Source: Streptomyces sp. NBC_00457
GTDB lineage: Bacteria > Actinomycetota > Actinomycetes > Streptomycetales > Streptomycetaceae
Reading direction: 5' to 3'
DNA length: 64,000 nt
NCBI RefSeq assembly: GCF_036014015.1
Contig: NZ_CP107905.1
Location: 10,044,001-10,108,000, forward strand
The translations under genes were made by a program, and so were the position numbers. The notes under the pieces are model-generated. The model had not been told where the DNA came from. It ran no database searches and was given only the letters and a program-made list of their open reading frames with translations. Shown here piece after piece: positions 10,806 through 30,187 of this stretch. Each line of letters opens with the position of its first letter. Position 1 is the stretch's first letter.

Positions 10806-10895
10806 GCGCCGACCCCGCGGCGCGAACCGGCGACCACCCGCACTCGGCCCGGTTGATCACCATGCCGATGAGCTGGAAAGAACGCCCGCCGCCAG

Positions 10896-10919
10896 GTTTT
10901 CGCCGAAGTGATCGGGAAA
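10896..10919 (+). promoter_or_regulatory. Possible SigB-type stress promoter before the Rieske gene
   Basis: GTTT at 10896-10899 and GGGAAA at 10914-10919, with a 14-base spacer, resemble the SigB-type consensus (GNNT, N14-16, GGGTAY). The last position is off-consensus. The ATG at 10930 is only 10 bases downstream, so a transcript from here would have almost no leader. Low-confidence pattern match. Confidence 0.3.
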
Positions 10920-10929
10920 CCCGGCGCAC

Positions 10930-11793
10930 ATGCGCAATCCCCTGTCGAAGATCGAAGTCCTGGAGGACGCCGACCTGCTCGACCGTGTCGCGGCCCCCGT
11001 CCGGACGCGCGTCCACGCGCTGCCCCTCGGGCCCCTGCGGGACGCGCTGCGCGGCCGTTGGCAGGGCCACCCCCTGCACCCGGTGCTGGTGCAGACCCCC
11101 ATCGGCGCCTGGACGTCCGCCGCGCTGCTCGATCTGACCCGCGGCAACGAACGCGCGGCCCGGCTGCTGGTCGCCGTCGGGCTCGCCGGCGCCGCCCCGG
11201 CCGCGCTGGCGGGGGCCGTCGACTTCGCGGACCAGCTTCCCGAGCAGGAGCGCGTGGGCGTGGTGCACGCGGCGGCGAACACCGCGGCCGTCGCCCTCTA
11301 CGCCGGCTCGCTCGTGGCCCGCAGCAGGGGCCGGAGCGGTCGGCTGCTCGGCTTCGCCGGACTCACGGCCGCCACGGTCGGCGGGTATCTCGGCGGCCAC
11401 CTGGCGTACCGGCAGGCCGCGGGGGTGAACCACAGCCAGGCCGTGCCGCATCTGATCGACGCGGGCTGGCACGCGGTCGGCGACCCGGAGGAGTTCCCGC
11501 GCGGCAGTGTCGTCCGGCGGATGGTCGGAGAGGTGCCCGTGCTGCTCGTACGGGACTCCGACAGCCCCGGAGAGATACACGCGCTGGCGGAGCGGTGCGC
11601 CCATCTCTCGGGCCCTCTGTCCGAGGGCGAGATCAGCGACGGATGCGTGACCTGTCCCTGGCACGGCAGCACGTTCCGGCTCTCGGACGGCGCCTGCGTG
11701 GCCGGCCCGTCCACGGCACCGCAGCCCGCCTTCGACGTACGCCTCAGCGACGGCCTGGTCGAGATCCGGCTACGGGAGGGACACGCGCATTGA
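10930..11793 (+). CDS. DUF2231 membrane protein fused to a Rieske [2Fe-2S] domain
   Basis: 287 residues. The N-terminal half (about 1-165) is a DUF2231-type membrane domain with HPLHPVLVQTPIGAWTSAALL and several hydrophobic helices (LVAVGLAGAAPAALAGAVD; AANTAAVALYAGSLV; GLTAATVGGYLGGHLAY). The C-terminal half (about 185-285) is a Rieske domain with CAHLSGPL and, about 15 residues on, CPWHG, which provide the two Cys and two His ligands. The domain likely faces the cytosol and passes electrons to or from a membrane redox partner; the partner is not encoded nearby. It lies between the Rv2629-like and catalase genes in the same direction, consistent with an oxidative-stress role. Confidence 0.88.
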   Translation: MRNPLSKIEVLEDADLLDRVAAPVRTRVHALPLGPLRDALRGRWQGHPLHPVLVQTPIGAWTSAALLDLTRGNERAARLLVAVGLAGAAPAALAGAVDFADQLPEQERVGVVHAAANTAAVALYAGSLVARSRGRSGRLLGFAGLTAATVGGYLGGHLAYRQAAGVNHSQAVPHLIDAGWHAVGDPEEFPRGSVVRRMVGEVPVLLVRDSDSPGEIHALAERCAHLSGPLSEGEISDGCVTCPWHGSTFRLSDGACVAGPSTAPQPAFDVRLSDGLVEIRLREGHAH

Positions 11794-11849
11794 ACGGGCG
11801 GGCGACCGCTTGAACGGGCGGGCGACCTCTTGATCGAGCGGGCGACCGC
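11790..11849 (+). repeat. Three tandem 20-bp repeats at the end of the Rieske gene
   Basis: Units at 11790-11809, 11810-11829 and 11830-11849. The first reads TTGAACGGGCGGGCGACCGC; the second differs at one base and the third at two. The first unit contains the Rieske stop codon (TGA 11791-11793). The array lies in the leader of the catalase mRNA if the genes are co-transcribed. It may arise by slippage or serve a regulatory role. Confidence 0.8.
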
Positions 11850-11907
11850 CCGACGACCGACCAGCCAACCTGCCGACCCAGTCGAAGAGTCGAGGGAGAA
11901 AACCGTC

Positions 11908-14028
11908 ATGACCACGCACGAACGCCGTCCCGCCGACGACGCGAAGCAGCGGCAGCGCGAAGCCCACCGCGCCCCCGACCCCGCCGGTGGCCCGCTCACC
12001 ACGGATCAGGGAGTGGTGGTCGATCACACCGACGACTCTCTCCGGGTGGGTGAACGCGGCCCCACGCTGATGGAGGACTTCCACTTCCGGGAGAAGCTCA
12101 CCCGCTTCGACCACGAGCGGATCCCGGAGCGCGTGGTGCATGCCCGAGGGGCCGGCGCGTACGGCTACTTCCAGCCATACCAGTCCTGTGCGGAGTTCAC
12201 CAAGGCCGCCTTCCTCCAGGATCCGTCCGTGCGGACGCCGGTGTTCGTGCGCTTCTCCACCGTGCAGGGCCCGCGCGGCTCGGCGGACACGGTGCGCGAC
12301 GTCCGCGGCTTCGCGACGAAGTTCTATACGTCGGAGGGCAATTACGACCTAGTCGGCAACAACATGCCGGTCTTCTTCATCCAGGACGGCATCAAGTTTC
12401 CCGACTTCGTGCATGCCGTGAAGCCCGAACCGCACAACGAGATCCCCACGGGCGCGTCCGCGCACGACACCCTCTGGGATTTCGTCTCCCTCCAGCCCGA
12501 GACCCTGCACATGATGATGTGGCTGATGTCCGACCGCGCCATTCCGCGCAGCTACCGGACGATGCAGGGCTTCGGTGTGCACACCTTCCGGTTCGTCGAC
12601 GCGGAGGGCAGGGGCACGTTCGTGAAGTTCCACTGGACGCCTGTGCTGGGCGTTCACTCGCTGGTGTGGGACGAAGCGCAGGAGACGCAGGGCCGGGACC
12701 CGGACTTCAACCGCCGTGACCTGTGGGACAACATCGCGGCCGGCAACTACCCCGAATACGAACTGGGTGTGCAGCTGGTGCCGGAAGAGGACGAGCACTC
12801 CTTCGACTTCGACCTCCTGGACGCCACGAAGATCATCCCGGAGGAGGAGATCCCCGTACGGCCCATCGGGCGCATGATCCTCGACCGCAACCCGGAGAAC
12901 TTCTTCGCCGAGACCGAACAGGTCGCCTTCCACACGGCCAACGTCGTGCCGGGCATCGACTTCACCAACGACCCGCTGCTCCAGGCCCGCAACTTCTCCT
13001 ATCTGGACACCCAGCTGATCCGCCTGGGCGGCCCCAACTTCGCCCAGATCCCGGTCAACCGGCCGATCGTGGACGTCCGCACGAACCAGCGGGACGGCTT
13101 CCACCAGGGACAGATCCACAGCGGCACCAGTTACAGCCCCAACTCCCTGAGCGGCGGCTGCCCGGTGCTTGCCGGAGCCGCCGACCCGAGCGCGTACAGC
13201 CATCTCCAGGAACGGGTGGACGGGAACAAGATCCGCAAGCGCAGCGAGAGCTTCAAGGACCACTACACCCAGGCGGCGCTGTTCTTCCTGAGCATGTCCG
13301 ACTGGGAGAGGCAGCACGTCATCGACGCCTTCCGTTTCGAACTCGGCAAGGTCGGGTCGACGCAGGTACGGGCGCGGACCGTCGAGCAACTGGGCCATGT
13401 GCACCACGGGTTGGCCGCCGCCGTGGCCGAGGGCATCGGTGTCGAGCCGCCCGAGAAGGAGGACACCCCGCAGCCGGAACCCTCCCCGGCGCTGAGCATG
13501 ACGAGCGACAAACTCCGCGGCGACGGCAGTATCCGTACCCGTCAGGTCGCGGTCCTGGTCGCCGACGGCGTGGACGCGGCCCAGGTCGGCACCGTGCGGG
13601 AGGTTCTGGAGGACGGCGGTGCGATCGTCGAGGAACTGGCCTTCCACGACGGCACGGTGCGCGACAGCGACGACGGCCGGCACCAGGTCGACCGGGCGCT
13701 GCCCACGGTCGCGTCCGTGCTCTACGACGCGGTCGTCATCCCGGGCGGCGGCGCTCCCGAACTCGCCGGCGACGCCACGGTCCAACGGTTCGTACGGGAC
13801 GCCTACCGGCACGGCAAGCCGGTCGGTGCCCTTGGCAGCGGCGTCGATCTGGTCGCCCTGCTGGAACCGGACGGCCTGCGCCTGGCCGGAGACGGCGACA
13901 GCACCGTGGCCGACCGCGGCGTGGTCACCGAGACGTCGACCGGGCCGGCCAGCGAGGTGTTCCTGTCGCAGCTGACCGCCGCGATCGCCACCCACCGCCA
14001 CTGGGACCGCCCGCCGGTACGCCGCTGA
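11908..14028 (+). CDS. katE: Large-subunit catalase (HPII/KatE type) with C-terminal flavodoxin-like domain
   Basis: 706 residues, the size of HPII-type monofunctional haem catalases. The catalase core contains the active-site His ([14 protein letters not shown]), Asn ([20 protein letters not shown]) and the proximal Tyr ([18 protein letters not shown]). A C-terminal DJ-1/PfpI-like domain (about 545-690: [33 protein letters not shown]) is the typical extension. It disproportionates hydrogen peroxide in the cytosol. ATG 11908 was chosen because GAGGGAG precedes it; the frame is open to 11830 in the repeat array. The neighbouring Rv2629-like and Rieske genes support a stress or stationary-phase role. 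Confidence 0.95.
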
Positions 14029-17425: not shown

Positions 17426-17947
17426 ATGCCCACACCACAGCTGCCTGATGCCCCCGCGTCCCCGGAAGTGATCGAGATCGAGCGGGCGCTCACCCGCATC
17501 ACTTACCTGAGCACGCGCGCCCGGCAGCACGACCGGCTGATGGCCCTGGCCGGCGTGCCGCTGGACCGGGCCGCCGTGGCGCTGCTGCGCCAGATCGCCG
17601 ACTCGGAGCCGCTGCGTCCCGGGGAGCTGGCCACCCGGCTGGGCGTGGAGGCCTCGCACATCACCCGCACCGTGCAGCAACTGCAGAAGGCCGGTTACGT
17701 CACCCGCGTCCCGGACCCCGACGACCGCCGCGCTCAGCGCATCCAGCTCACCGACGCCGGGCGCCGGGCCATCGACAAAATCCGCGACGCGGGCGCCCGC
17801 GGCATGCAACTCGCCCTCGGCGACTGGCCTCCGGAGGAACTGCGCCAGCTCGCCACCCTCTTCCACCGCATGGTCGACGACTTCCTGTCGTACGCCATCG
17901 ACGACGAGCCGGAACCCGAGGCAGCGACACCGGCGGGCACCGCCTGA
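17426..17947 (+). CDS. MarR-family transcriptional regulator
   Basis: 173 residues. A winged-helix domain spans about 45-120: RAAVALLRQIADSEPL, ELATRLGVEASHITRTVQQL and the wing VPDPDDRRAQRIQLTDAG. The N- and C-terminal helices form the dimer interface. The C-terminus ends in an acidic, Pro-rich tail (EPEPEAATPAGTA). ATG 17426 was preferred to GTG 17417 because the promoter and palindrome place it as a possibly leaderless start. MarR proteins sense phenolics or oxidants and repress nearby genes; the peroxiredoxin gene 64 bases downstream and its own promoter are the likely targets. It is the intact paralogue of the pseudogene at 1208. Confidence 0.9.
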   Translation: MPTPQLPDAPASPEVIEIERALTRITYLSTRARQHDRLMALAGVPLDRAAVALLRQIADSEPLRPGELATRLGVEASHITRTVQQLQKAGYVTRVPDPDDRRAQRIQLTDAGRRAIDKIRDAGARGMQLALGDWPPEELRQLATLFHRMVDDFLSYAIDDEPEPEAATPAGTA

Positions 17948-18011
17948 ACTACGCCTGGGCGACCGCGCTACGCTCCAGTGATCGCGGGCAGGAATCACAG
18001 AGGGGCACACA

Positions 18012-18479
18012 GTGAGCGGACGTATAGGGGTCGGGGACAAGGTCGAGGACTTCGAGCTGGCGGACGAGACCGGCACTCGCCGTCGCCTGTCCGAACTGCT
18101 CACCGAGGGACCCGTGGTGCTGTTCTTCTACCCTGCGGCAATGACGGCCGGCTGCACCGCCGAGGCCTGCCACTTCCGGGACCTGGCCGCCGAGTTCGCC
18201 GCTGTCGGCGCCCGCCCGGTCGGGATCAGCGGGGACTCCGTCGAGCGCCAGCAGGAGTTCGCCGAGCGGCACACCCTGGGCATGCCGCTGCTGTCCGACG
18301 TCGACGGGACGGTCCGGGAACAGTTCGGTGTGAAGCGCGGCTTCTCCATGGCGCCCACCAAGCGCGTCACCTATGTCATCGCCGAGGACCGCACCGTCCT
18401 GGAGGCCGTCCACAGCGAACTGCGCATGAACACCCACGCCGACCGCGCCCTCGCTGCGCTGCGCGACCACCGGAAGTGA
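18012..18479 (+). CDS. Peroxiredoxin (BCP/PrxQ type)
   Basis: 155 residues from GTG 18012. The thioredoxin fold carries VVLFFYPAAMTAGCTAEACH: the peroxidatic Cys is in AGCTAE, with a second Cys five residues later (the PrxQ/BCP atypical 2-Cys spacing). VGISGDSVERQQEFAERH and LLSDVDGTVREQFGV are conserved. It reduces hydroperoxides using thioredoxin or a similar donor, in the cytosol. The upstream MarR gene in the same direction is the likely regulator. The N-terminal SGRIGVGDKVEDFEL is the usual start of the family, so the GTG start is well supported. Confidence 0.93.
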   Translation: MSGRIGVGDKVEDFELADETGTRRRLSELLTEGPVVLFFYPAAMTAGCTAEACHFRDLAAEFAAVGARPVGISGDSVERQQEFAERHTLGMPLLSDVDGTVREQFGVKRGFSMAPTKRVTYVIAEDRTVLEAVHSELRMNTHADRALAALRDHRK

Positions 18480-18546
18480 CCTCGAACCGGCACGGGGGCG
18501 CCGGTGCCGGTTGATACGGCCCCACAAGAGGGCCATTCTGGACGAT

Positions 18547-20883
18547 ATGGAGCACGCCTCCGCCACGGTGATCATCGATTCCTCGGGTGTCGTCACGGGG
18601 TGGAGCGAAGGCGCCCGGAAGCTGACCGGATACGCGGCCGAGGAGGTCGTGGGACGGGCGGCACGCGATCTGCTCGCCGAGGACCCGTCGCCTCAGACCC
18701 GGGCCGCGCTGTCCGGCCCCGTCGTCCTGCGGCACCGTGACGGCTCCACCGTGGCGCTCCCCGTGCAGGCGACCGCCGTGCTGGGCCCGGACGGCGCACC
18801 CGGCGGACATGTGATCACCGCCCGGCCCGGCGGCCCCGAACCCACCCTCGCGGGACAGGCCTTCCAGCAGGCATCGATGTCCATGTCGGTCTTCGACACC
18901 CGGCAGCGCTATCTGCGCCTCAACGACACGGCCTGCCGGATCATGGGCGTGCCGGAGGAGGTGCTCCTGGGCAGGCCCTTCCTGGAGACCGTGGAGGACG
19001 CCGAGCACAGCCACGGCTTCCAGAGCAATCTGCGCCGCGTCGCCGAGACGGGCCAACCGGTCCACTACGAGAGCTTCACCAGCGCGCCCGCCCTCAACCG
19101 GGAACACGCCTGGAACATCGAGATGTGGCCCGTGCGGGACGACTCCGGTGACGTCACCGGAGTCGCGCTGGCCGCCCTCGACAGCACCGGGCAGTACTGG
19201 GCCCGGCAGCGACTGGCCCTGCTCAACGAGGCGGCGGCCGCCATCGGCACCACCCTGGACGTGGTGCGCACCGCGGAAGAGCTCGTGGAACTCCTGGTCC
19301 CGCGCTACGCCGACTTCGCCAGCGTCGACCTGCTCGACTGGGTCCTCGGGGCGGACGAGGCCCCGACGGCACTGGACCAGGAGATCGTCCTGCGCCGCGT
19401 CGCCCACGGCTCCCGTACCGAAGGCACTCCGGAGGCGGCCGTGCACCTGGGCGACACGGAGATCTACCCCGGATACTCGCCGCCCGCCCGGGCCCTGCGG
19501 GAGGGGCGGGCCGTCCTCGGCCAGGCGGGCGAGCCGGACTTCATGCGCTGGGTCGCCGAACGCAACGCGCGGGCCCCGGCGGGCCGCCCACACCGCAAGG
19601 GCGTCCACTCGATGCTCGCCGTGCCGCTGCGGGCCCGCGGCACCACGCTCGGCGTCGCGGTGGCCGTCCGTATCGCCAATCCCGACGACTACGACGCGGA
19701 CGATGCCGCCGTCGCCGAGGAACTCGCCAGCCGGGCCGCCGTCTGCGTCGACAACGCCCGCCGCTTCGCCCGCGAACGCACCACCGCGCTGGCCCTCCAG
19801 CACAGCCTGCTCCCACGAGCACTGCCCGGACAGGCGGTGGTCGAGGTGGCCCACCGCTATCTGCCCTCCGGCTCCCTCGCCGGCATCGGCGGCGACTGGT
19901 TCGACGTGATCCCGCTGTCCGGCAGCCGGGTCGCCCTGGTCGTCGGCGACGTCGTCGGGCACGGCATCCCGTCGTCGGCGACCATGGGCCGCCTCTGCAC
20001 GGCCGTCCGCACCCTCGCCGACGTGGACCTGCCGCCGGACGAACTCCTCACCCACCTCGACGACCTGGTCACCCACCTGGCGTCCGACGACCGCGACGAA
20101 GAGGCCGCCGAACTCGGCGCCACCTGCCTGTACTCCGTCTACGACCCCGTCACCCGCCACCTCACCATGGCCGCCGCCGGACACCCCCCGCCCGTCGTGG
20201 TCCTCCCCGACGGCACCACGCGGCTGGTCGAGATCAACGCCGGGCCCCCGCTCGGCGTCGGCGGGCTGCCCTTCGAGTCGGTGGAGCTGGAACTCCCCGA
20301 GGGAGCCGTCCTGGCCCTCTACACCGACGGTCTCATCGAGGACCGGGACCGCGACGTCGACCACGCCACGTCCGAGCTGTGCCGGGCGCTGGCCGCCCGC
20401 ACCGACACCCTGGACGCCCTGTGCGACACGGTGCTGAAGGCCGTACTGCCGGAAGAGCCCAGCGACGACGTTGCCCTCCTGCTCGCCCGTACCCGGGCGC
20501 TGGGCGCGGACCGGGTCGCCACCTGGGACGTGCCCCCGGACCCCGCGCACGTGGCCGTCACCCGGCAGGAGGCCACCGAGCAACTGGCCGCGTGGGGGCT
20601 GGACGAGGCCGCCTTCGTCACCGAACTCGTCGTCAGCGAACTCGTCACCAACGCCATCCGCTACGGCGAACCGCCCATCCGGCTACGGCTGATCCGCGAC
20701 CGCAGCCTCATCTGCGAGGTCTCCGACGGCAGTTCCACCTCACCGCATCTGCGCCGGGCACACGCCTACGACGAGGGCGGGCGCGGCCTCCTCCTGGTCG
20801 CTCAGCTCACCCAGCGGTGGGGCAGCCGGCAGACGGTCAACGGCAAGACCATCTGGGCCGAACAGCCCCTGCCACCGGTCTGA
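18547..20883 (+). CDS. PAS-PAS-GAF-SpoIIE phosphatase with C-terminal HATPase (anti-sigma kinase-like) domain
   Basis: 778 residues from ATG 18547 (a TTG at 18511 is possible). Domains in order: PAS (about 1-95), PAS (about 105-220: MSVFDTRQRYLRLNDTACRI), GAF (about 225-405), PP2C-type SpoIIE phosphatase (about 415-635: GGDWFDVI, GDVVGHGIPSSATM, LYTDGLIEDRD) and an HATPase_c domain (about 660-778: VVSELVTNAIRYGEPP, GGRGLLLVAQLTQRW). The phosphatase probably dephosphorylates an anti-anti-sigma factor, and the HATPase end resembles RsbW-like kinases, so one protein may hold both activities of a sigma-factor switch. It is cytosolic, with ligand sensing by PAS/GAF. It directly abuts the convergent cupin gene. 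Confidence 0.93.
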   Translation: MEHASATVIIDSSGVVTGWSEGARKLTGYAAEEVVGRAARDLLAEDPSPQTRAALSGPVVLRHRDGSTVALPVQATAVLGPDGAPGGHVITARPGGPEPTLAGQAFQQASMSMSVFDTRQRYLRLNDTACRIMGVPEEVLLGRPFLETVEDAEHSHGFQSNLRRVAETGQPVHYESFTSAPALNREHAWNIEMWPVRDDSGDVTGVALAALDSTGQYWARQRLALLNEAAAAIGTTLDVVRTAEELVELLVPRYADFASVDLLDWVLGADEAPTALDQEIVLRRVAHGSRTEGTPEAAVHLGDTEIYPGYSPPARALREGRAVLGQAGEPDFMRWVAERNARAPAGRPHRKGVHSMLAVPLRARGTTLGVAVAVRIANPDDYDADDAAVAEELASRAAVCVDNARRFARERTTALALQHSLLPRALPGQAVVEVAHRYLPSGSLAGIGGDWFDVIPLSGSRVALVVGDVVGHGIPSSATMGRLCTAVRTLADVDLPPDELLTHLDDLVTHLASDDRDEEAAELGATCLYSVYDPVTRHLTMAAAGHPPPVVVLPDGTTRLVEINAGPPLGVGGLPFESVELELPEGAVLALYTDGLIEDRDRDVDHATSELCRALAARTDTLDALCDTVLKAVLPEEPSDDVALLLARTRALGADRVATWDVPPDPAHVAVTRQEATEQLAAWGLDEAAFVTELVVSELVTNAIRYGEPPIRLRLIRDRSLICEVSDGSSTSPHLRRAHAYDEGGRGLLLVAQLTQRWGSRQTVNGKTIWAEQPLPPV

Positions 20884-21318
20884 TCACTCGAACGGGCAGC
20901 CCGGATTCGCCGCGTCCTGCGAGAACGGCGCCCCGTGCGGCAGGACGTACAGCACATCGAGGACGACCGCCGTGTCGCCCAGATTGCGGCCGATGTGGAC
21001 GTTGCCCGCTCCGGCCGGTTCCTGAATGGTGCTGCCCTTCGGATACACGCCGTCGGACGCGCAGGTGGAGTCGTGGTGGCTGAGCGTGCCCTGCTGCACG
21101 ACGGCGTACAGCGGACCGTCGTGGTAGTGCCAACCGGTCGCCTGCCCGGGCGGGATGGTGATCTCTCGCAGGATGTAGTCGGTGCCGCCGACCGTGGTCC
21201 GGGCGATCACCGTTCCGGTGACCCCCGGACCGGGCGGGGTCGCCACAGCGGTGCCACAGATCGCGAAAGTGGCGGCTGCGACCGCCCCGGTTATGGCGGT
21301 ACGGAGGAACATGCGCAT
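20884..21318 (-). CDS. Secreted cupin-domain protein
   Basis: 144 residues. Residues 1-27 form a signal peptide (FLRTAITGAVAAATFAICG, cleavage near TAVA-TPP). The cupin barrel contains ILREITIPPGQATGWHYHDG, with the His-x-His metal motif, then LYAVVQQGTLSHHDS and HIGRNLGDTAVVLDVLYVLP. Two cysteines (STCASDG and GCPFE) could form a disulfide outside the cell. ATG 21318 has GGGAGG 8 bases upstream. Ligand and activity are unknown; single-domain secreted cupins are common in Streptomyces. Its stop directly abuts the stop of the convergent SpoIIE-type gene. Confidence 0.85.
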   Translation of the reverse strand: MRMFLRTAITGAVAAATFAICGTAVATPPGPGVTGTVIARTTVGGTDYILREITIPPGQATGWHYHDGPLYAVVQQGTLSHHDSTCASDGVYPKGSTIQEPAGAGNVHIGRNLGDTAVVLDVLYVLPHGAPFSQDAANPGCPFE

Positions 21319-21416
21319 GGGAACGGCCTCCCGGCGTGAGCGGACGATCGACGACGTGCCGCTGTGAACATAGAGGCGCGGAAGGCCAGTTGGGGGCAGA
21401 ATCCGGTGACGGGCAC

Positions 21417-22247
21417 TCAGAACTCCTCGTGCACCTCGGGGTCCCCGCCCAGACGCCGGTGCGCGCGGTCGGCGAGCGCCTCCAGCTGCGCGGCATCGAG
21501 TTCGAAGCCGAAGACGTCGAGGTTCTCCCGCTGCCGCCCGGGGCTGGCCGACTTCGGGATGGGCAGCGCGCCCAGCTGTGTGTGCCAGCGCAGCACGACC
21601 TGGCCCGGCGTCACCCCGTGCGCCTCGGCGAGGCCGATGACGGCGGGATCGTCCAGCAGGTCGGAGCCACGGCCCAGCGGGCTCCAGCTCTCGGTGACGA
21701 TGCCCTTGCCGGCGTGGAAGGCCCGCAGGTCCTCCTGCGGGAACAGCGGGTGCAGCTCGATCTGGTTCACGGCCGGCAGGACCCCGGTCTCCTTCTCCAG
21801 CCGTTCGATGTGCTCGGCCGTGAAGTTGGAGACCCCGATCGACCGCACGAGGCCGTCCTCGCGGAGTTTGATCATGGCCTTCCAGGAGTCGACGTACTTG
21901 TCGACGCGGGGGAGTGGCCAGTGGATGAGATACAGGTCGACGTAGTCCAGGCCGAGCCGGCCGCGGGACTCCTCGAAGGAGGCGAGGGTCTCCTCGTAGC
22001 CGTGGTGCCGCCCCGGAAGCTTCGTGGTCACCACGACTTCCTCACGGGGTACGCCGCTGTTCGCGACGCCCCGGCCGACTCCGGTCTCGTTGCGGTAGTT
22101 CGTCGCCGTGTCGACGAGCCGGTAGCCCATCTCCAGCGCGGCGCCGACCGCCTGCTCGGCCTGTGCGTCGTTCATCGGCCAGGTGCCCAGGCCGATGGCG
22201 GGGATCTGCGTACCGTCGTTGAGCGTGTGTGCCGGGATGCTGAGCAC
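21417..22247 (-). CDS. Aldo/keto reductase (AKR5-like)
   Basis: 276 residues from GTG 22247, which has GGAAGG upstream; the open frame continues far beyond to 23138 but without homology. The catalytic tetrad is visible: Asp and Tyr in LVDTATNYRNE, Lys in VVTTKLPG, His in LYLIHWPLP. The NADPH site has VRSIGVSNF and IPKSASPGRQRENLDVF. The 2,5-didehydrogluconate reductase-like group includes xenobiotic and sugar carbonyl reductases; the real substrate is unknown. The gene is cytosolic and stands alone between the cupin and the divergent TnpB-like gene. Confidence 0.92.
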   Translation of the reverse strand: MLSIPAHTLNDGTQIPAIGLGTWPMNDAQAEQAVGAALEMGYRLVDTATNYRNETGVGRGVANSGVPREEVVVTTKLPGRHHGYEETLASFEESRGRLGLDYVDLYLIHWPLPRVDKYVDSWKAMIKLREDGLVRSIGVSNFTAEHIERLEKETGVLPAVNQIELHPLFPQEDLRAFHAGKGIVTESWSPLGRGSDLLDDPAVIGLAEAHGVTPGQVVLRWHTQLGALPIPKSASPGRQRENLDVFGFELDAAQLEALADRAHRRLGGDPEVHEEF

Positions 22248-22416
22248 GGTCGGACCTTCCCGTTGACTGTGTCGTCCAGCCAGTATGGGAGTTTCCGTCG
22301 GTGCAGGCAGGGCCGATGCCGTCCGGGGACCGGAGCGCTCGTGTGTTTCCGTTCGCAGCCGTAGCGATGCGCCGTTCGTCGGTGTCGTGCAGTGTGTCCG
22401 GTCCGGGTTCGCATCT

Positions 22417-22437
22417 GAATGCGTAGTTCGAATGCGT
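22417..22437. repeat. Direct repeat GAATGCGT upstream of the TnpB-like gene
   Basis: GAATGCGT occurs at 22417-22424 and again at 22430-22437, 13 bases apart start to start. It lies about 60 bases before the GTG at 22495. It may be a regulator site or mark the left end of a mobile unit; there is no direct evidence for either. Confidence 0.4.
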
Positions 22438-22494
22438 GACCTTTTCGCGGGGGTGTCGTTGATCGGATGACAGCACCACGGGCGGGAAGGGGGG

Positions 22495-24510
22495 GTGCCG
22501 GTGACGCGGAAGGTGCCGCTAAGCGAGGGCGAAATGGCCCGGACCGCCTGTGCTCGTGGTCTACTGCGCTCGGGCGTGGTGGAGAATACGGGCGAGGTGC
22601 TGTCGGCCGCGGTGCTGGCACGGCGGGTCGGCTGGGCCGCCGATCTGGTGTCGGGGATGGCCGCCGACCTGCTGGCCGAGCACTGGAACGCCGCTGATGT
22701 GGACGTCCTGGCCTCGGGCGCGGACGCGAGCGGGCGGAAGTTGCCGTCGAGCGCGTGGATGGCGCTGCGCCGACTGGGCTGGACGGCCGCTCCGGCCGGG
22801 GGTGTGAGGGTCAATGACCGGATCGTGCGCATGGCCCAGGAGCAGGCCGGGCGTGCTCTGCGCTCGGCCAACTGGCGGGCCGAACTGACGTCCGCAGTCC
22901 TTGAGACGTGGCCGGGCGATCCGGGCAAGCGCACACCTGAGGAGTGGGACCAGGTGCGGATGGCAATCCCCGGGGGTCGGGATCTCCCTTCGGTCGTGAT
23001 CCGCTCCCGCACCCGGCAGATCGATGCCTTCGTCGCGATGAACGGCCGTGTGCCTGCTGATGTGTTCGAGCTGGAGGCCCCGCCCCGGGCAGCGCGGATG
23101 CTGCTGCTGTCGGCGTGTGACAGCCAGCAGGCCGCCATCGAACGCGGCGAGGGCGATCCGCAGCGCGCGCTGCTGCGCTTGCAGCTGCCTACCCGATCCG
23201 ACCCGTGCTCCTACCAGGACTGGACGTGGGTTGCTTGTCCCGTCCCGCTGCCTCCTACGGTCCCGCCTAGCGCGGTGCTGCACTTGCCCACCCTGCGCAT
23301 CACGGGCGGGAAAGTTCGCGCCGATCTCGCCTACACCCACGCCGTCCCCAGGACCAGCCGTACCGGCCACACCGTGGCCCTCGGCGTGGACTGGGGCCTG
23401 AACACCCTGCTGTCCGCGGGCGCTGCCCGACTCCATGACGACGGACACATCACCCAGCTCGGGGCTGGTGCCCAGTTCCGGGCTGCCGGGATCCTCACCA
23501 AACAACACCGCCTCCGGCGCCTCTCGGAACACCTTCACACCAAAGCCGACCACCTTGAGCGGCTCATTGACGCTGACGGGCAGCACGAACTGTCCGGCAG
23601 ACACGAGGTGTTGCGGGACGAGATCCGCTTCGTGTCGGACCGCAGGTCGAACCTCAACGCCGCCCTCGCCCGGGCCGCCGCCCGCTGGAGCGTGGACCAG
23701 GCCATCGCCGCCCACGCCACGGTGATCTACCTGGAAGACCTGCGGTCGATGGAAGCGGGGGGCATGGGCCGCACCCACAACACCCGCATGTCCCACACGG
23801 TGCGCGGGCAGATCGCCGACCGTATCCGGCACCTGGCCGCCGAGGCAGGTATCGCCGTCGTCACAGTCCCGCCCCGCAACACCTCCAGGCACTGCCCCCA
23901 GTGCCTCACCCCACTGCGGCACCGCAAAGCCCCCGACCGCCCCACCGCACGAGGCTGGAAATGGGCTATCTGCCCCGACCGCGCCAGATGCGGCTGGCAG
24001 GGCGACCGTGACCACGGCGCCTGGCAGCGCATCGCCGCACGCGGCCTCACCCACCAGGCCAAGACGGTCACCGACCGGGCCACCGGGCAGATGGTGATCC
24101 GCGCAGTTGTGGACAAGCTCGAAACGACCGCGGTCATCACCCCAACCACCGAGATCAGCCGGGCCGACCGGTCCAAGACTGGCCCCACCCGGCGCCGAAC
24201 CACACGCCCCGCGCCCAGGCGACGCAGGGTACCCTCCCCCACCGGCCCCTCGGGTTCGGCGGGCAAGCGTCCGGAGGGACACGCATCAACGGGCCGGAAG
24301 ACACTGCCCCGCGCAGCCCACCGGCACCAGGGCGTGGCGACGATCAGCACACCCTCCCCCAGCCTCCGTCCCGGGGGACCCCCATCCAGCCGACACCGGC
24401 CGCGAGGAGCAGCATTGGGCGCGGGCTTCCATCTGCACGCCCACGCCACCCCTCCACGATGGGCAGATCCCATGCGAGACGCCATGTCTGGCATGGGGTC
24501 ACTAAGCTGA
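22495..24510 (+). CDS. Long TnpB/Cas12-type RuvC nuclease (OrfB family), no transposase partner
   Basis: 671 residues; most TnpB proteins have about 350-450. The three RuvC acidic residues appear intact: Asp299 in ALGVDWGLN, Glu414 in VIYLEDLRS, and Asp506 in GDRDHGAWQRI. A zinc ribbon precedes the last motif (SRHCPQC and CPDRARCGW). The first about 290 residues would be the nucleic acid-binding WED/REC part, with little recognisable sequence. The last about 110 residues are Arg/Pro-rich and low complexity, and may be translated through an overlapping guide-RNA region. By analogy with TnpB it would be an RNA-guided DNA nuclease. No TnpA or serine recombinase is adjacent. The start is uncertain: GTG 22495 or GTG 22501 after GGGAAGG. 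It sits between an aldo/keto reductase and a LacI gene. Confidence 0.85.
   Translation: MPVTRKVPLSEGEMARTACARGLLRSGVVENTGEVLSAAVLARRVGWAADLVSGMAADLLAEHWNAADVDVLASGADASGRKLPSSAWMALRRLGWTAAPAGGVRVNDRIVRMAQEQAGRALRSANWRAELTSAVLETWPGDPGKRTPEEWDQVRMAIPGGRDLPSVVIRSRTRQIDAFVAMNGRVPADVFELEAPPRAARMLLLSACDSQQAAIERGEGDPQRALLRLQLPTRSDPCSYQDWTWVACPVPLPPTVPPSAVLHLPTLRITGGKVRADLAYTHAVPRTSRTGHTVALGVDWGLNTLLSAGAARLHDDGHITQLGAGAQFRAAGILTKQHRLRRLSEHLHTKADHLERLIDADGQHELSGRHEVLRDEIRFVSDRRSNLNAALARAAARWSVDQAIAAHATVIYLEDLRSMEAGGMGRTHNTRMSHTVRGQIADRIRHLAAEAGIAVVTVPPRNTSRHCPQCLTPLRHRKAPDRPTARGWKWAICPDRARCGWQGDRDHGAWQRIAARGLTHQAKTVTDRATGQMVIRAVVDKLETTAVITPTTEISRADRSKTGPTRRRTTRPAPRRRRVPSPTGPSGSAGKRPEGHASTGRKTLPRAAHRHQGVATISTPSPSLRPGGPPSSRHRPRGAALGAGFHLHAHATPPRWADPMRDAMSGMGSLS
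24466..24500 (+). ncRNA. 35-nt hairpin at the 3' end of the TnpB-like gene, candidate guide-RNA scaffold end
   Basis: GATCCCATGC (24466-24475) pairs with GCATGGGGTC (24491-24500) with one G-U pair; inside, AGAC (24477-24480) pairs with GTCT (24486-24489) around a 5-base loop GCCAT, with a single G opposite G. It ends 8 bases before the TGA stop (24508-24510). There is no U-tract after it, so a simple intrinsic terminator is less likely. TnpB guide RNAs typically come from the 3' end of the gene, so this is a candidate for the scaffold end; the guide would be the sequence after it. Confidence 0.4.
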
Positions 24511-24549
24511 TCAGAGACGCTGAGGAGTGATCAACCGGACGGGTGGGGG

Positions 24550-25632
24550 ATGAGGGCGGCGGACGGCATGGGCAGCGCCGAGGACAGGCAGACGAACGGC
24601 ACCGCGCGTCCCACGTCACGGGACGTGGCCCGGCTGGCCGGGGTCTCGCACACCGCTGTCTCCTTCGTGTTCAACGGCCGCGCCCAGGGCAACCTCTCGC
24701 CCGCCACCCAGGAACGCATCCGGCAGGCCGCCGCGCAGCTCGGCTACCGGCCCGACCCGGTCGCACGCGGTCTGCGCCGCAGTCGTACGGCCGTGATCGG
24801 GCTGGTCACCGACGAGATCGCCTCGTCGCCGTTCGCGGGCCGGCTGCTGCGCGGCGCGATGGAGACGGCCTGGAGCAGTGAGCACCTGGTGCTGACCGTC
24901 GACTCCGGCGGCGACCCGGCCAAGGAGGACGCGGCCGTCGCCGAACTCCTCGACCGGCGGGTGGACGGCATCATCTACGCCGCCATGTCCCTGCGCCGTG
25001 TCCGCGTCCCCGAGGGCCTGCACCGCACCCACTCGGTGCTCGCCAACTGCCTGCCCGAGGACGACTCGCTGCCCTCCGTCATCCCCGCCGAGCGCGCGGG
25101 CGGCCGTACGGCGGCGAGGCTGCTCCTTGAGCAGGGCCACCGCAGGATCGCCCTGGTGGGAGGGCAGAACGACATCGCGTCGGTGGAGCGGCTGCGCGGT
25201 TTCCGGGACGCGTTGCGGGCCGAGGGGATCACCGTCCCCAAGGAGTGGGTCGTACGGACCGGAGGCGAGATCTCCGGCGGCTACCGCGGCGCCGAGCAAC
25301 TGCTCTCCGACGCCCCCGCCGCACGGCGCCCCACCGGGATCTTCTGCTACAACGACCGGGTCGCGGCCGGCGTCCTGCACGCCGCGACCCGGCTCGGGAT
25401 CACCGTCCCCGACGAGCTGTCGATCGTGGGCTACGACGACCAGGAGCACATGGCCGCCTTCCTGACCCCGCCCCTCACCTCGGTGGCGCTGCCGCACCGG
25501 GCGATGGGCGAGGCCGCCACCCGGCTGCTGCTCGACGCCATCGACACCGGCCGCACTCCGCCCGCCACCACACGGCGCCTCGCCTGCCCGGTGATCAGCC
25601 GGGCGTCGGTGGGACCAGCTCCCACCCGGTGA
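24550..25632 (+). CDS. LacI-family transcriptional regulator of the fructan locus
   Basis: 360 residues. The HTH is TSRDVARLAGVSHTAVSFVF, then NGRAQGNLSPATQERIRQAA and the hinge helix LGYRPDPVARGLRR. The periplasmic-binding-protein-like effector domain follows (GLVTDEIASSPFAGRLLRG, VDGIIYAAM, GHRRIALVGGQNDIASVERL, FCYNDRVAAGVLHAA, LSIVGYDDQEHMA). Start ATG 24550 or ATG 24568; the HTH begins about 22 residues in. It lies convergent with the GH32/ABC operon, overlapping the GH32 end by 38 bases. The LacI-type dyads between the operon and the secreted GH32 gene (30197-30210, 30279-30291) are its probable operators; a fructose or fructan-derived sugar is the likely inducer. Confidence 0.92.
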   Translation: MRAADGMGSAEDRQTNGTARPTSRDVARLAGVSHTAVSFVFNGRAQGNLSPATQERIRQAAAQLGYRPDPVARGLRRSRTAVIGLVTDEIASSPFAGRLLRGAMETAWSSEHLVLTVDSGGDPAKEDAAVAELLDRRVDGIIYAAMSLRRVRVPEGLHRTHSVLANCLPEDDSLPSVIPAERAGGRTAARLLLEQGHRRIALVGGQNDIASVERLRGFRDALRAEGITVPKEWVVRTGGEISGGYRGAEQLLSDAPAARRPTGIFCYNDRVAAGVLHAATRLGITVPDELSIVGYDDQEHMAAFLTPPLTSVALPHRAMGEAATRLLLDAIDTGRTPPATTRRLACPVISRASVGPAPTR

Positions 25633-26965
25633 CGGAGGCCCCCCGCCCCGTCACGACCAGCTCGGGCACCTCGTCCGGGCGCCGGTAGACCCGCTCGGTG
25701 ACCATGGCCCGGTCACCGACGAACAGCTCCAGCAGCGAACCGTCCACGAGGAGGCGCGCCTCCAGCCGCTCCCCGCCCGGCACCCGCACCACGATCGGCG
25801 CGGAACCCTCCTCGCCGGAGTCGAACACCACGGTTCCCGCGTCCGGGTCCAGCCGCACCGCCGAGCGCGGCAGGTTCACGGTCGTCCGGGCGACGGCGGT
25901 GACCGTCACGTCGTACGCCTGTGGAAGCGTCACCCGGCCCGGCGCGGTGATGAACGGCTCCGTCGCACGCAGCCGTTCGAGTTCCGGAGCCGGGACGACG
26001 CGCAGCGATCCGTCGGGGTGTACGTCGACGACGCGGGGCGCGGTCAGGACACCGGCCCAGCCGGCACGGTCCACCTCGCGCTGCTCACGGGACTCCCAGG
26101 ACCAGCCCCACATCAACGCCCGGTCCGATTCCTGGAGTACGGCGGGAGCGTAGAAGGCTCGACCGTGGTCCAGGGGGCCTCCCGTGTACGGCCGGAAGCG
26201 CAATCCCCCTTCTTCGCAAGCTTCCAGACGTCCCGTCAAGTAGCCCGTGGTGTGCGGGTTCCCGTCCCACAGCGACACCACCAGCACCCACTCCCCGGCC
26301 TCGGTCGCGAACAGTTGGGGGCACTCCCACCCCGTCGCCCGGTCGCCGAACGCTTCGGCGGCCACCGGATCGTTGCCGTCCAGGAGCACCCCGGCGAACC
26401 GCCAGTCGGTCAGGTCGTCGCAGTCGTACAGCAGCACCGACGGGGTGCCGTCCCCATGACCCGCGCCGACCAGCGCCCAGCGGCGGCCTCCGTGCCGGAA
26501 GACGAACGGGTCGCGGAACATCACCACGTCCAGACCGGCGGGCGGGCCGCTCACGACGGGCGCGGGCAGCGGCTTCCAGTCGGTGAGCGTCTCGTCCTGC
26601 GGGACCAGTGCCCGCGCCAGGCAGATCGTGCCGAGGCCCGTGTGGTGGCGGTCGACCCCCGTGTACACGGCCGTCGGTACGCCGCCGTCGTCGACCACGC
26701 ACCCGGACCAGCAGCCCGCCTCGTCGGGGCCGCCGGGCGTCGGGGTGAGCGCCAGGGGGTGGTGCTCCCAGTGCGCCAGGTCGGGGCTGGAGGCATGGCC
26801 CCAGTGGACGTTCGCGTGGATCGGAGCCTCGGGATTGTGCTGGTAGAAGAGGTGGTACCGGCCGCGCCAACGGAAGGGGCCATTGGGGTCGTTGATCCAG
26901 TTGGCGGGCGGACGGACCCGGAAGCGGGGGGCGTTGGGGTCCTGGGGTGGAGCTGCGAGGCTCAA
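25595..26965 (-). CDS. Glycoside hydrolase family 32 (intracellular fructosidase/levanase type)
   Basis: 456 residues, no signal peptide. A TTG start at 26965 has AGGAG 7 bases upstream and overlaps the permease stop (TTGA), indicating translational coupling. GH32 motifs: WINDPNGP with nucleophile Asp26, VMFRDPFVF (transition-state Asp), and TGWECPQLF with the acid/base Glu. A C-terminal beta-sandwich is present (LVDGSLLELFVGDRAMVTERVY). It hydrolyses terminal beta-fructofuranosyl bonds in the cytosol, so imported fructo-oligosaccharides or sucrose would be its substrates. It is the last gene of a four-gene operon with two permeases and a binding protein; its 3' end overlaps the convergent LacI gene. 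Confidence 0.94.
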   Translation of the reverse strand: MSLAAPPQDPNAPRFRVRPPANWINDPNGPFRWRGRYHLFYQHNPEAPIHANVHWGHASSPDLAHWEHHPLALTPTPGGPDEAGCWSGCVVDDGGVPTAVYTGVDRHHTGLGTICLARALVPQDETLTDWKPLPAPVVSGPPAGLDVVMFRDPFVFRHGGRRWALVGAGHGDGTPSVLLYDCDDLTDWRFAGVLLDGNDPVAAEAFGDRATGWECPQLFATEAGEWVLVVSLWDGNPHTTGYLTGRLEACEEGGLRFRPYTGGPLDHGRAFYAPAVLQESDRALMWGWSWESREQREVDRAGWAGVLTAPRVVDVHPDGSLRVVPAPELERLRATEPFITAPGRVTLPQAYDVTVTAVARTTVNLPRSAVRLDPDAGTVVFDSGEEGSAPIVVRVPGGERLEARLLVDGSLLELFVGDRAMVTERVYRRPDEVPELVVTGRGASVTGWELVPPTPG

Positions 26966-27834
26966 CGGTTGACTCCTGCGGAGGTGATGCCCTCGCGGAG
27001 AGGGCGCTGGCCGACGATGAACACGGCGACAGCGGGGAGCATGGAGAGGACGACTCCGGCGAGTACGACCGAGATGGAGCCGGTGCCGAGATTGCCCTGG
27101 AGGGAGACCAGGCCCAGCGGGAGCGTGTAGTTCTGGCCGGACGTCTCGAGGATCAGTGGTCGGAAGAATTCGTTCCAGTGGTAGTTGAAGGCCAGCACGC
27201 CGACGATCGCGAGCCCGGGCGCGGCCAGCGGGGCGTAGACGGAGCGGAAGATCCGCCAGGGCCCGGCGCCGTCCAGCATCGCCGCCTCGCCGAGATCCTT
27301 CGGCATGCCGAGGAAGTACTGGCGCATCAGGAAGGTGCCGAAGGCGGTCGGGAAGGCCGGGATGATCAGGCCGAGCAGGGTGTCGGTGAGGCTCAGCTGC
27401 TTCAGTACCAGGAACACCGGCACGATGGTGACCTGCAACGGCACCATCATGGTCGCCAGGACCAGGCCGAACAGCGGCTTCTTGAACCGGAATTCGAGGC
27501 GTGCGAAGGCGTATCCGGCCAGCCCCGCCGTGATCATCTGGCCGACGGCGATCAGCGCGGTGACCAGCGTCGAGTTGAGGGCGAGCAGCCAGACGTCGAG
27601 CTGGTCGAAGACTCCGCTGTAGGCCTCGGTGGTGGGACTGGTCGGGATGATCTGCGGCGGCAGGTCGAAGGATTCGGCCGGGGTGCGCAGCGAGGTGGAG
27701 ACGGTCCAGATGACCGGGCCGAGGGTCAGCAGGGCGCACACCGCCAGGGCTGCGATCCGCGCCCAGGGTGCGAGCGAGTACCGCGCACGGCTCAGGGACA
27801 GGGTTGCTTGGCTCAAGGGACTCACCCGGCTCAC
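26962..27834 (-). CDS. Carbohydrate ABC transporter permease (MalG-like)
   Basis: 290 residues, six membrane spans (LAVCALLTLGPVIWTVSTSL, ALIAVGQMITAGLAGYAFA, LVLATMMVPLQVTIVPVFLV, LIIPAFPTAFGTFLM, GLAIVGVLAFNYHWNEFF, VVLAGVVLSMLPAVAVFIV). The EAA loop, MPKDLGEAAMLDGAGPWRIF, contacts the ATPase. Its GTG start at 27834 overlaps the upstream permease stop (GTGA), and its own stop overlaps the GH32 start. It forms the membrane channel with the MalF-like partner for import of a fructose-containing sugar. No ATPase is encoded in the operon; in Streptomyces a shared MsiK-type ATPase encoded elsewhere commonly serves such systems. Confidence 0.95.
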   Translation of the reverse strand: MSRVSPLSQATLSLSRARYSLAPWARIAALAVCALLTLGPVIWTVSTSLRTPAESFDLPPQIIPTSPTTEAYSGVFDQLDVWLLALNSTLVTALIAVGQMITAGLAGYAFARLEFRFKKPLFGLVLATMMVPLQVTIVPVFLVLKQLSLTDTLLGLIIPAFPTAFGTFLMRQYFLGMPKDLGEAAMLDGAGPWRIFRSVYAPLAAPGLAIVGVLAFNYHWNEFFRPLILETSGQNYTLPLGLVSLQGNLGTGSISVVLAGVVLSMLPAVAVFIVGQRPLREGITSAGVNR

Positions 27835-28781
27835 TCGTAGTGGACGAAACGCCGGCTGAGCCGGAACTGGACGGCGGTCACCGCCATGATCAGCACGAAC
27901 AGCAGCACGCCCACCGCGGACGCCTCACCGAAGCGGAGCTGCTCGAAGGCGCTCTCGTAGATCACCATCACGACGGTGCGGGTGGAGTCGCCGGGACCGC
28001 CGTTGGTGAGGACGTACGGCTGCTCGAAGACCTGGAGCGCGTTGATGATGCCGACCACCGACGCGACCAGCAGCGTCGGCGACAGCAGCGGCAGTGTGAC
28101 GTGCAGGTGCTTGCGCAGGCCGGTCGCGCCGTCGAGGGCGGCGGCCTCGTGGATCTCCTTGGGGATGTTGTTGAGACCGCCGACGAACAGCAGGAAGGAG
28201 AAGCCGAACTGCTGCCAGACGTAGACCAGGACGACGGTCGCCATCGCCGCGTTCTCCGACGTCAGCCAGGGCACCGGGGCGATGCCGACCGTGCCGAGCA
28301 GCCAGTTGACGAGGCCGAAGTCCTGGTTGAACAGGTACTTCATCACCACGGAGATGGACGCGGCGGACAGCACCAGCGGGAAGAAGAACGCCGAGCGGAA
28401 CACCGACCGCAGCCACACCGGCATCCGCCCGTTCACCGCGAGCGCCAGCACCAGGGCGATCAGCAGTTGCAGCGCGACCGCGAACACCATGAACACGAGC
28501 GTGTTGCGGAAGGACACCAGCACGGTCGAATCGCCGAACACCTCACGGTAGTTGGCGGCTCCGGCGAAGCTGGGTGGGTCGATGACGTTCCAGTGGAAGA
28601 GGCTCAGCACCACCGAGCCGACGATCGGTACGACCGTGAAGACCACGATGCCGACGATCGTGGGCGCCAGGAACAGCGCCGCGAGCAGCCGGGTGCCGCG
28701 CTCGCGGGCGGAGGGGCGGGGCAGGGAAGGCGGCGGTGCCGCGGGACGCGAACGTACGGGAGGAACCTGGGTGTTCGTCAT
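27831..28781 (-). CDS. Carbohydrate ABC transporter permease (MalF-like)
   Basis: 316 residues, six membrane spans after a Pro-rich cytosolic N-terminus of about 30 residues. The EAA loop is IPKEIHEAAALDGATGLRKH. GGPGDSTRTVVMVIYESAF is the conserved region between the last spans of MalF-type sugar permeases. ATG 28781 overlaps the stop of the binding-protein gene (ATGA), so translation is probably coupled. It pairs with the MalG-like permease downstream for sugar import across the cytoplasmic membrane. Confidence 0.95.
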   Translation of the reverse strand: MTNTQVPPVRSRPAAPPPSLPRPSARERGTRLLAALFLAPTIVGIVVFTVVPIVGSVVLSLFHWNVIDPPSFAGAANYREVFGDSTVLVSFRNTLVFMVFAVALQLLIALVLALAVNGRMPVWLRSVFRSAFFFPLVLSAASISVVMKYLFNQDFGLVNWLLGTVGIAPVPWLTSENAAMATVVLVYVWQQFGFSFLLFVGGLNNIPKEIHEAAALDGATGLRKHLHVTLPLLSPTLLVASVVGIINALQVFEQPYVLTNGGPGDSTRTVVMVIYESAFEQLRFGEASAVGVLLFVLIMAVTAVQFRLSRRFVHYE

Positions 28782-30187
28782 ACGTCACGCTCCATGGCCT
28801 TCTCCAGGTCGCCCTGCATCCGGCGCAGCGCGCCACGCACCGAGCGCGGCGAGGCCAGGGCGGTTCCGGTGTGCTTGAGCAGCACCTGCTCGACCTCGGC
28901 GACCTGCGGCGGCGCGGGGATCGGCCCGGTGTCGGGGAACCGGTCGAGGGTGTCGTAGAAGACCTGCCACTGGCTCGGGCCGGACTCCCGGTAGCGGTCC
29001 GCGGTGAGCATCGAGCGGCGGGCCGGGGTCGTCTGGTTCGTCTCGAACAGCCGCATCAGGGTGTCCCTGCGGGCGGCGAACTTGATGAACTCCCATGCCT
29101 CGTCCTGCTTCTTCGAGGTGCGCAGCAGCGCGTAGCCTGCGGCGCCGTACTGCATGCGCTGGGTGCGCCAGCGGGGGAAGTACTGGACGTCGAAGCCGTC
29201 GGACTTCATGCCCGCCAGATGCAGGCCGCCAGCCCAGAAGCCGCCCGCGGGGGTGACGCCGACCCGGCCGGTGGAGAACACGCCGATGAGGTTCTGGCCG
29301 TTGCCGCCCTCGGGCCGGGTGCACAGGTCTTCCTGGATGAGGGAGGCGAGATAGTCGTAGGCCTCCTCCACCCGGTCGTGGGTGGCCTGCGGCGTCGTCC
29401 AGCGGAAACCGCCCCCGCGTCCCTGCCGCTGGGCGGCCGGGTAGAAGGAGTCCCACAGCCAGGCGCCGCCCGGTGCCTTGGACTCGGCGAGCAGGTTCGT
29501 GTCGTTCGCGAACAGCCAGGGCACGACACCGCCCCACAGCCGGTTGGTCCAGAAGTACGGCGTGAACTGGGAGCCGCTCGACTTCTTCATGTCCCGCAGC
29601 AGCGTGGTGAAGTCGTCGCGCGTCCAGTCGGCGGGCGGCAGCTGAGCGCCCGCCCGCTTCAGCACCTGCGTGTTGAAGTACATGTCGGCCGCGTTGAACT
29701 CGACCGGCAGCTGGTAGAGGCTTCCCTCGTACATCATCGACTCCACCAGCGAGGGATGGACGTCGGCGAAGTACTCACGCAGCTCGGCCGCGTCCCGCTT
29801 CACCCAGCGGTCCAGTGCGACCCCGAGGCGCTGCGCGAACAACTGGACGCCCTCGGTGGCGACATAGACGAGGTCCGGGGCGGTGCCCGCGGCGATCTGG
29901 GTGAGGATCTTCGCGAAGAAGTCCGACCAGTCCACGGCCTGCACCGCGTTGATCCGCAGCTTGATGTCGGGGTGGACCTCCTTGAAGCCCTCGGTGAGTG
30001 TGCGTATGGCCTCCGGTCCGTAGGCGGGACCGAGGGTGGCGACGACGAGGGAGCCGTCGTCGCGGCCGGGAATGTCGGCTCCGGTGAGCCGGTCCCAGCT
30101 CGCGGCGGTACCGGCCAGCGCGGCGGCTCCCGCGCCATAGGCGCCGTACCGCAACAGCGTGCGGCGAGTGACGTGCGGGTCAGTCAT
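28778..30187 (-). CDS. Extracellular sugar-binding protein of the ABC transporter
   Basis: 469 residues. The N-terminus has a twin-arginine pattern (TRRTLLRYGAYGAGAAALAG). No Cys lipobox is visible in the first 40 residues, unusual because Gram-positive binding proteins are normally lipoproteins. The mature part is a cluster-1 solute-binding protein: VVATLGPAYGPEAIRTLTEG, FAKILTQIAAGTAPDLVYVA, FNAADMYFNTQVLKRAG, and GVTPAGGFWAGGLHLAGM. It should capture fructans or fructo-oligosaccharides outside the cell for the two permeases. First gene of the operon. Its upstream region contains TTGACA at 30253-30258 (minus strand) and a LacI-type dyad at 30197-30210. Confidence 0.9.
   Translation of the reverse strand: MTDPHVTRRTLLRYGAYGAGAAALAGTAASWDRLTGADIPGRDDGSLVVATLGPAYGPEAIRTLTEGFKEVHPDIKLRINAVQAVDWSDFFAKILTQIAAGTAPDLVYVATEGVQLFAQRLGVALDRWVKRDAAELREYFADVHPSLVESMMYEGSLYQLPVEFNAADMYFNTQVLKRAGAQLPPADWTRDDFTTLLRDMKKSSGSQFTPYFWTNRLWGGVVPWLFANDTNLLAESKAPGGAWLWDSFYPAAQRQGRGGGFRWTTPQATHDRVEEAYDYLASLIQEDLCTRPEGGNGQNLIGVFSTGRVGVTPAGGFWAGGLHLAGMKSDGFDVQYFPRWRTQRMQYGAAGYALLRTSKKQDEAWEFIKFAARRDTLMRLFETNQTTPARRSMLTADRYRESGPSQWQVFYDTLDRFPDTGPIPAPPQVAEVEQVLLKHTGTALASPRSVRGALRRMQGDLEKAMERDV

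Follow-up and report, generated by a model that had tools for sequence, protein, structure and literature searches.

The window analysed here is a stretch of 64,000 nucleotides (nt) from Streptomyces sp. NBC_00457 (contig NZ_CP107905.1, forward-strand positions 10,044,001 to 10,108,000), and all coordinates below refer to it unless stated otherwise. On its forward strand lies a 671-amino acid (aa) open reading frame (ORF), tnpB, which an earlier sequence-only reading had singled out as a solitary, extra-long nuclease gene. The gene is the tnpB of an IS607-type mobile element and not a domesticated regulator. It stands alone between conserved ends, and we consider the whole to be, very probably, a TnpB-only element derived from an actinomycete IS607-type insertion sequence and encoding an RNA-guided nuclease that takes its guide from the right flank (Table 1). 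The sequence basis for this reading consists of the RuvC triad, the predicted fold, a covarying pseudoknotted RNA, a variable guide position, empty sites in relatives, and other relatives that carry the recombinase TnpA.

The ORF is genuine and its frame is the one first described. Its probable start is the second GTG, at 22501, where relatives begin, giving a protein of 669 aa. The gene is present as a single copy in the 10.8-Mb single-contig host genome, with no other match there, and 1136 relatives were scored in the protein search. In an alignment of the query with 59 chosen relatives, picked from two relative lists, the RuvC residues D299, E414 and D506 and the zinc-ribbon cysteines C467, C470, C493 and C499 were invariant in 60/60 sequences, which bears out the earlier claim that triad and ribbon are intact. 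D299 belongs to a RuvC-I motif (DWG) of the D-hydrophobic-G form, and E414 sits 53 residues ahead of C467, in agreement with the RuvC D-E-D definition as worded in PMC10711439, which puts the canonical Glu some 50 residues ahead of that finger. The first RuvC Asp is at residue 299, compared with 194 in ISFba1, and the N-terminal part is correspondingly longer. The length of about 1.5 times the usual, as previously noted, is fair relative to IS607 TnpBs accompanied by RAGATH-18 RNA, for which PMC11061315 gives a mean of 390 aa.

The sole Pfam domain above its cut-off was the Cas12f1-like TNB domain PF07282 (39 bits, cut-off 26.3), which was present in 60/60 family members. The score to the NCBIfam Cas12f2 model was 45 bits, below the cut-off of 450, and the Cas12f models of PADLOC also match TnpB. 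When the predicted model of the protein was compared with known structures, it matched Cas12f and TnpB folds; the C-terminal 133 residues were predicted to be disordered. The frame is intact, and across the tnpB family diversity at third codon positions exceeded that at positions 1 and 2, consistent with purifying selection.

Element ends, insertion sites and recombinase genes

A scan of genome contigs for the element gave 16 loci. A right end close to GCTGATCAGAGACGCT was common to all of them except L012, which is a fragment, and the sequence beyond this end varied between copies, with the exception of L003 and L016, which represent one site in two strains. The final GACGCT closes the element in 25/27 cases, the variants being GATGCT (L072) and GACGTT (L096). 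Other copies adjoin differing sequences, so that the ends are common to many insertion sites, and L089 and L090 occupy two sites within one genome. L089 and L092 (G124, positions 40606 and 11287196) place the element about 40 kb in from each of the two ends of a contig of 11.3 Mb, so that it probably lies inside terminal inverted repeats.

A scan with the right-end pattern produced 30 matches in 21/121 genomes of the genus. The 30th is the window's own; among the 29 that were re-fetched, 16 had a pseudoknot partner upstream and 13 had neither this partner nor any full tnpB. Confirmed elements were therefore counted in 11/121 genomes, a number that copies with more diverged ends would escape. 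L081 and L091 are exact 16-base matches to the right end with neither tnpB nor pseudoknot partner, and reflect either chance or remnants. No match was found among 50,697 phage records. Of 72,556 plasmid records, 19 matched, one of them covering 80% or more of the query, and the right-end RNA region matched two.

Empty sites were sought by strain comparison, as the sequence-only reading had proposed. The side of the locus that holds a LacI-type regulator gene was strongly similar (86–88% identity) in 6/40 relatives of the host. In four of these (L019–L022) both flanks aligned 14–44 bases apart with no element between them, while in L023 and L024 the LacI side alone aligned. The right flank begins at 24521 in L019–L022, in agreement with the right end of the element. 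The four empty sites read GGATAGGGT up to the junction and GAG after it, followed by a stretch resembling the window's right flank, and have AGGGT at the position of the left-flank motif. AGGCT-like left flanks were found in 16/25 listed elements, a count that leans upward because the search pattern itself contained AGGCT; L070, misplaced in this list, actually reads AGGCT, and the left ends of L071 and L075 were not located by the left-flank script. Another site can be read from L010, in which a TnpA-carrying copy (9000–12500 of that locus) is inserted within another tnpB gene, whose frame continues across the joined flanks at CAGGCT/CTT. Stop-free frames spanning joined flanks were given little weight, because they are common in GC-rich DNA, and L010 alone was used as evidence.

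A serine recombinase gene lies upstream of tnpB in 5/27 aligned elements (L004, L010, L014, L070 and L075); the remaining 22, including the window copy, have none. In L004 and L010, tnpB begins at the very end of the recombinase gene. The three recombinases tested (L004, L010 and L070) scored 142 bits to the NCBIfam model transpos_IS607 (cut-off 110), while that of L014 is split over two frames and that of L075 is partial. An IS607 recombinase is thus found in the family, not with the window copy: as the sequence-only reading had remarked, no TnpA lies beside the gene (none in 19001–28000 at E 1e-5, with L004 TnpA as the only query), and the best score in the host genome was 24.7 bits, against the same cut-off of 110. 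Of the 11 genomes examined in this comparison, six have an IS607 TnpA above the cut-off. When 26 tnpB genes were placed in a tree from their nucleotide sequences, the recombinase-carrying and recombinase-less kinds interleaved, and the recombinase-less L003 formed a group with L004 and L010 (support 100%), several deeper nodes being weak. (L015 was excluded from this tree and from the codon-diversity alignment.) Empty sites in four relatives, shared ends and IS607 TnpA in some relatives together favour a mobile element reduced to its nuclease, one of the two possibilities raised from the sequence alone.

Predicted guide RNA in the coding tail

The Arg/Pro-rich 3' end of the gene and its closing hairpin had both been noted earlier, and both are present, the hairpin having 14 pairs and a folding energy of −26.0 kcal/mol. 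What the sequence-only reading had missed is that this tail is most likely the scaffold of a predicted guide RNA (omega-RNA, or reRNA) that is also translated; the guide itself would begin at 24522. Mean third-position diversity over 25 elements (L093 excluded) was 0.28–0.45 in codons 1–570, fell to 0.16–0.17 in codons 571–630, and was 0.25–0.30 beyond. A structure composed of the RNAalifold result, the terminal hairpin and the pseudoknot was evaluated on 27 right ends. It had 92.9% of cells paired, versus 33–45% when slid along the alignment, and in 12 pairs both partners had changed, compared with 5.4 ± 1.4 in shuffles (0/500 reached 12) and 2–8 in slid versions. The six base pairs (bp) of the pseudoknot, between AGCGTC and GACGCT, were kept in 27/27 sequences, with two G-U variants. 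According to PMC10711439, ISXfa1 depends for its activity on a pseudoknot in the IS607 reRNA, and its scaffold includes the nucleotide next to the right end. In the host genome, the predicted 19-nt guide of the window copy matched exactly at its own site alone and with three mismatches at one more, versus one match in the control.

It is also possible, though unlikely, that the tail is a functional protein domain and the RNA structure secondary. Most of the tail stays in frame, the GFHLHAHA..PPRW segment is nearly invariant, and position 3 is still more variable there than position 2; however, the tail is predicted to be fully disordered, its third codon positions are constrained and its stems covary, all of which argue for the RNA.

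The nuclease, its guide and the alternatives

Judged from its sequence, the recombinase-less element appears to consist of a predicted nuclease, an unusually long variant, with a guide RNA embedded in the end of its gene. By analogy with characterized systems, we infer that the window's TnpB complex would carry out RNA-guided DNA cleavage. Following the TnpB model as published in PMC11061315, the tnpB transcript would be processed at its 3' end to give omega-RNA, with a guide copied from the right flank. The complex would then cut a site that lacks the element or has lost it, at an AGGCT or AGGGT motif followed by a match to the guide, and the element would be regained by repair from an occupied copy. 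With ACGCT instead of AGGCT at its right junction, an occupied site would escape cutting. For the element to move, an IS607 TnpA would have to act in trans, and since none was found in the host, the window copy is probably stationary now.

Several observations weigh against a TnpB-only element with an embedded guide RNA. The protein scored 43.1 bits to NCBIfam NF040570 (guided_TnpB) over residues 271–514, below the cut-off of 100 bits at which it could be filed under that family, and 17.5 bits to TIGR01766, below the cut-off of 32. The right-end RNA had no Rfam match up to E 1, RAGATH-18 included, and the folding energy of the window RNA by itself was weak (z = −1.7, 3/100 shuffles as good). 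The terminal hairpin as aligned had only 75% of cells paired, with insertions and deletions between copies. The pseudoknot carries little covariation of its own because it hardly varies, and the structure was derived largely from the same alignment, which biases the comparison with its slid versions in its favour. Finally, the left junction of the window copy is GCGCT rather than AGGCT, and the 50-odd bases beside it (22284–22339) have no match in the empty sites. They may be what is left of an earlier left end. The idea that they duplicate the left end was weak and was rejected (61/2000 shuffles were equally similar).

We think it improbable that the element is a decayed, inactive remnant of an IS607 element. 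TnpA is found neither beside tnpB nor elsewhere in the genome, the host has a single copy, and several relatives are frame-split or truncated, as would be expected of decay; yet the frame is intact and the family is under purifying selection, and copies without TnpA have a conserved left module in common and occupy many sites, two of them in one genome in the case of L089 and L090. Most improbable of all is a form of the other possibility raised earlier, a gene domesticated as an RNA-guided regulator of the LacI/sugar locus in the manner of TldR but with its nuclease kept. In its favour, the guide position is immediately ahead of the start of the LacI-type gene (24550), with the sugar locus beyond. 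Against it, the triad is invariant, the LacI locus occurs in four relatives that have no element there, other copies adjoin different DNA, and the only further genomic match to the guide, with three mismatches, is equalled by the control.

The sugar-transport locus reported next to the gene is there: beside the LacI-type regulator, a GH32 glycosidase, two ABC sugar permeases and a binding protein are encoded on the reverse strand at 25595–30187. It is most simply the place where the window copy landed, and looks incidental.

A promoter-like box and the BldN hypothesis

A promoter-like box, CGTGAC-N16/17-CGTTGA, occurs in every one of the 22 recombinase-less elements, 29–69 bp ahead of the tnpB start set by the script (12/12 bases in 14 elements, 11 in six and 10 in two); in the distant L093 it reads CGTAAC-N17-CGTTGA. 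The developmental sigma factor BldN recognises CGTAAC-N16-CGTTGA, as given in PMC2375139. A 19-base box overlapping the second half of the promoter-like box was found, with up to three mismatches, in 20/21 recombinase-less elements (the single miss being L093; L071 lies outside that list) versus 0/4 recombinase-carrying elements tested, and with up to four mismatches its only matches in all five recombinase-carrying loci lay outside the elements. The exact BldN motif occurs once in the host genome, 100 bp before a response-regulator gene that we take to be bldM. When extended by TNNGATG, the box had nine occurrences in 199 genomes of the genus, eight of them beside a family tnpB, and no control matches; this result is not independent, because the extension was taken from these elements. 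On G212 contig 7 (L122), the extended box occurs once, away from any family tnpB.

Two results speak against BldN. A looser BldN box was not enriched in the host genome (six matches, control ten), and the sequences upstream of six chaplin-domain matches in the host, some of which fall within one protein, agreed at 7–9 of 12 bases, about as well as shuffled sequence. BldN control is for these reasons treated as hypothetical, and its support rests on conservation between elements. No standard sigma-70 promoter or terminator was found at the element. Many genome copies share one cell during aerial-hypha formation. We suggest, tentatively and with more doubt than confidence, that the recombinase-less form is a lineage of its own, in which a BldN-type module has taken the place of tnpA with its leader and the nuclease and guide RNA are made during aerial-hypha formation. 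If so, development would set the time at which the element is copied, in a homing-like way, into empty sister or incoming chromosomes. No literature combining TnpB, Streptomyces and BldN was found among openly licensed papers.

Table 1. Features of the element and its flanks, in window coordinates.
Feature	Position	Strand	Basis
Stretch of 50-odd bases just outside the family's left end, not aligning with empty sites	22284..22339		Flank comparison
Whole element, 2182 bp	22340..24521	+	Comparison with relatives; right boundary firm, left by family alignment only
Left end, first part similar to TnpA-carrying copies; probable recombinase binding end	22340..22376	+	Similarity judged by eye
Promoter-like box CGTGAC-N16-CGTTGA, one base off the BldN motif	22435..22462	+	Conservation, motif comparison
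tnpB ORF, probable start 22501 from relatives	22495..24510	+	ORF calling, homology, alignment
Folded part of TnpB, residues about 11–538	22525..24108	+	Cas12f/TnpB fold, predicted
Disordered Arg/Pro-rich tail, residues 539–671, largely overlapping the predicted scaffold	24109..24510	+	Disorder prediction, codon diversity, RNA structure
Predicted omega-RNA (reRNA) scaffold, 5' end approximate	24205..24521	+	Codon diversity, right-end RNA alignment
AGCGTC, 5' half of pseudoknot	24266..24271	+	Six pairs kept in 27/27 sequences
Terminal hairpin	24466..24500	+	RNA alignment, folding
GACGCT, right end and 3' half of pseudoknot	24516..24521	+	Shared right ends, RNA alignment
Predicted guide, the ~20 nt that open the right flank and differ from copy to copy	24522..24541	+	Flank comparison

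Comparison with known systems

Among the literature matches listed, all openly licensed papers, we found no description of a long actinomycete TnpB family; one may exist elsewhere. The large family is given here with its ends, a predicted embedded guide RNA and a likely target motif, which is enough for a cleavage test. Elements with and without a recombinase form natural pairs whose tnpB genes interleave, a good setting for studying how TnpB-only elements spread, and the promoter box allows a direct test of developmental control over the RNA-guided nuclease of a mobile element.

ISDra2 TnpB and Cas12f have the same predicted fold, although the window TnpB is longer. Unlike at a Cas12f locus, there are no CRISPR-like repeats: no direct repeats of 21 or more bases, up to 120 bases apart, occur in 17500–29500, and a type V CRISPR effector (Cas12) was rejected on this ground. 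With TldR the gene shares a TnpB origin and a site beside a regulatory or transport locus. However, RuvC is disabled in TldR, as described in PMC13418256, whereas here the triad is intact, which sets the gene outside that group, and sister genomes lack the element. The IS1341 group, as described in PMC9956272, likewise has one tnpB between conserved ends and no transposase gene, and its members are further required to lack any Y1 or serine recombinase remnant. Its TnpBs have 362–489 aa, whereas the window element, which may or may not belong there, is tied to IS607 relatives.

The closest likeness is to the IS607 TnpBs of ISFba1 and ISXfa1 (as described in PMC11061315 and PMC10711439), with which the family shares the canonical RuvC D-E-D and zinc ribbon, a right-end RNA running into the flank, a pseudoknot as in ISXfa1, and a likely G-rich left-flank motif, TnpA being present in most full elements. 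The differences are that the protein has about 670 aa rather than about 390, with a longer N-terminal part; that the RNA of ISFba1 begins 13 nt downstream of the gene, whereas the predicted scaffold here overlaps the coding tail; that the motif is AGGCT rather than AGGAG or GAGGG; and that neither RAGATH-18 nor any other Rfam family matches. New here is the promoter-like box near the BldN motif in all 22 recombinase-less elements.
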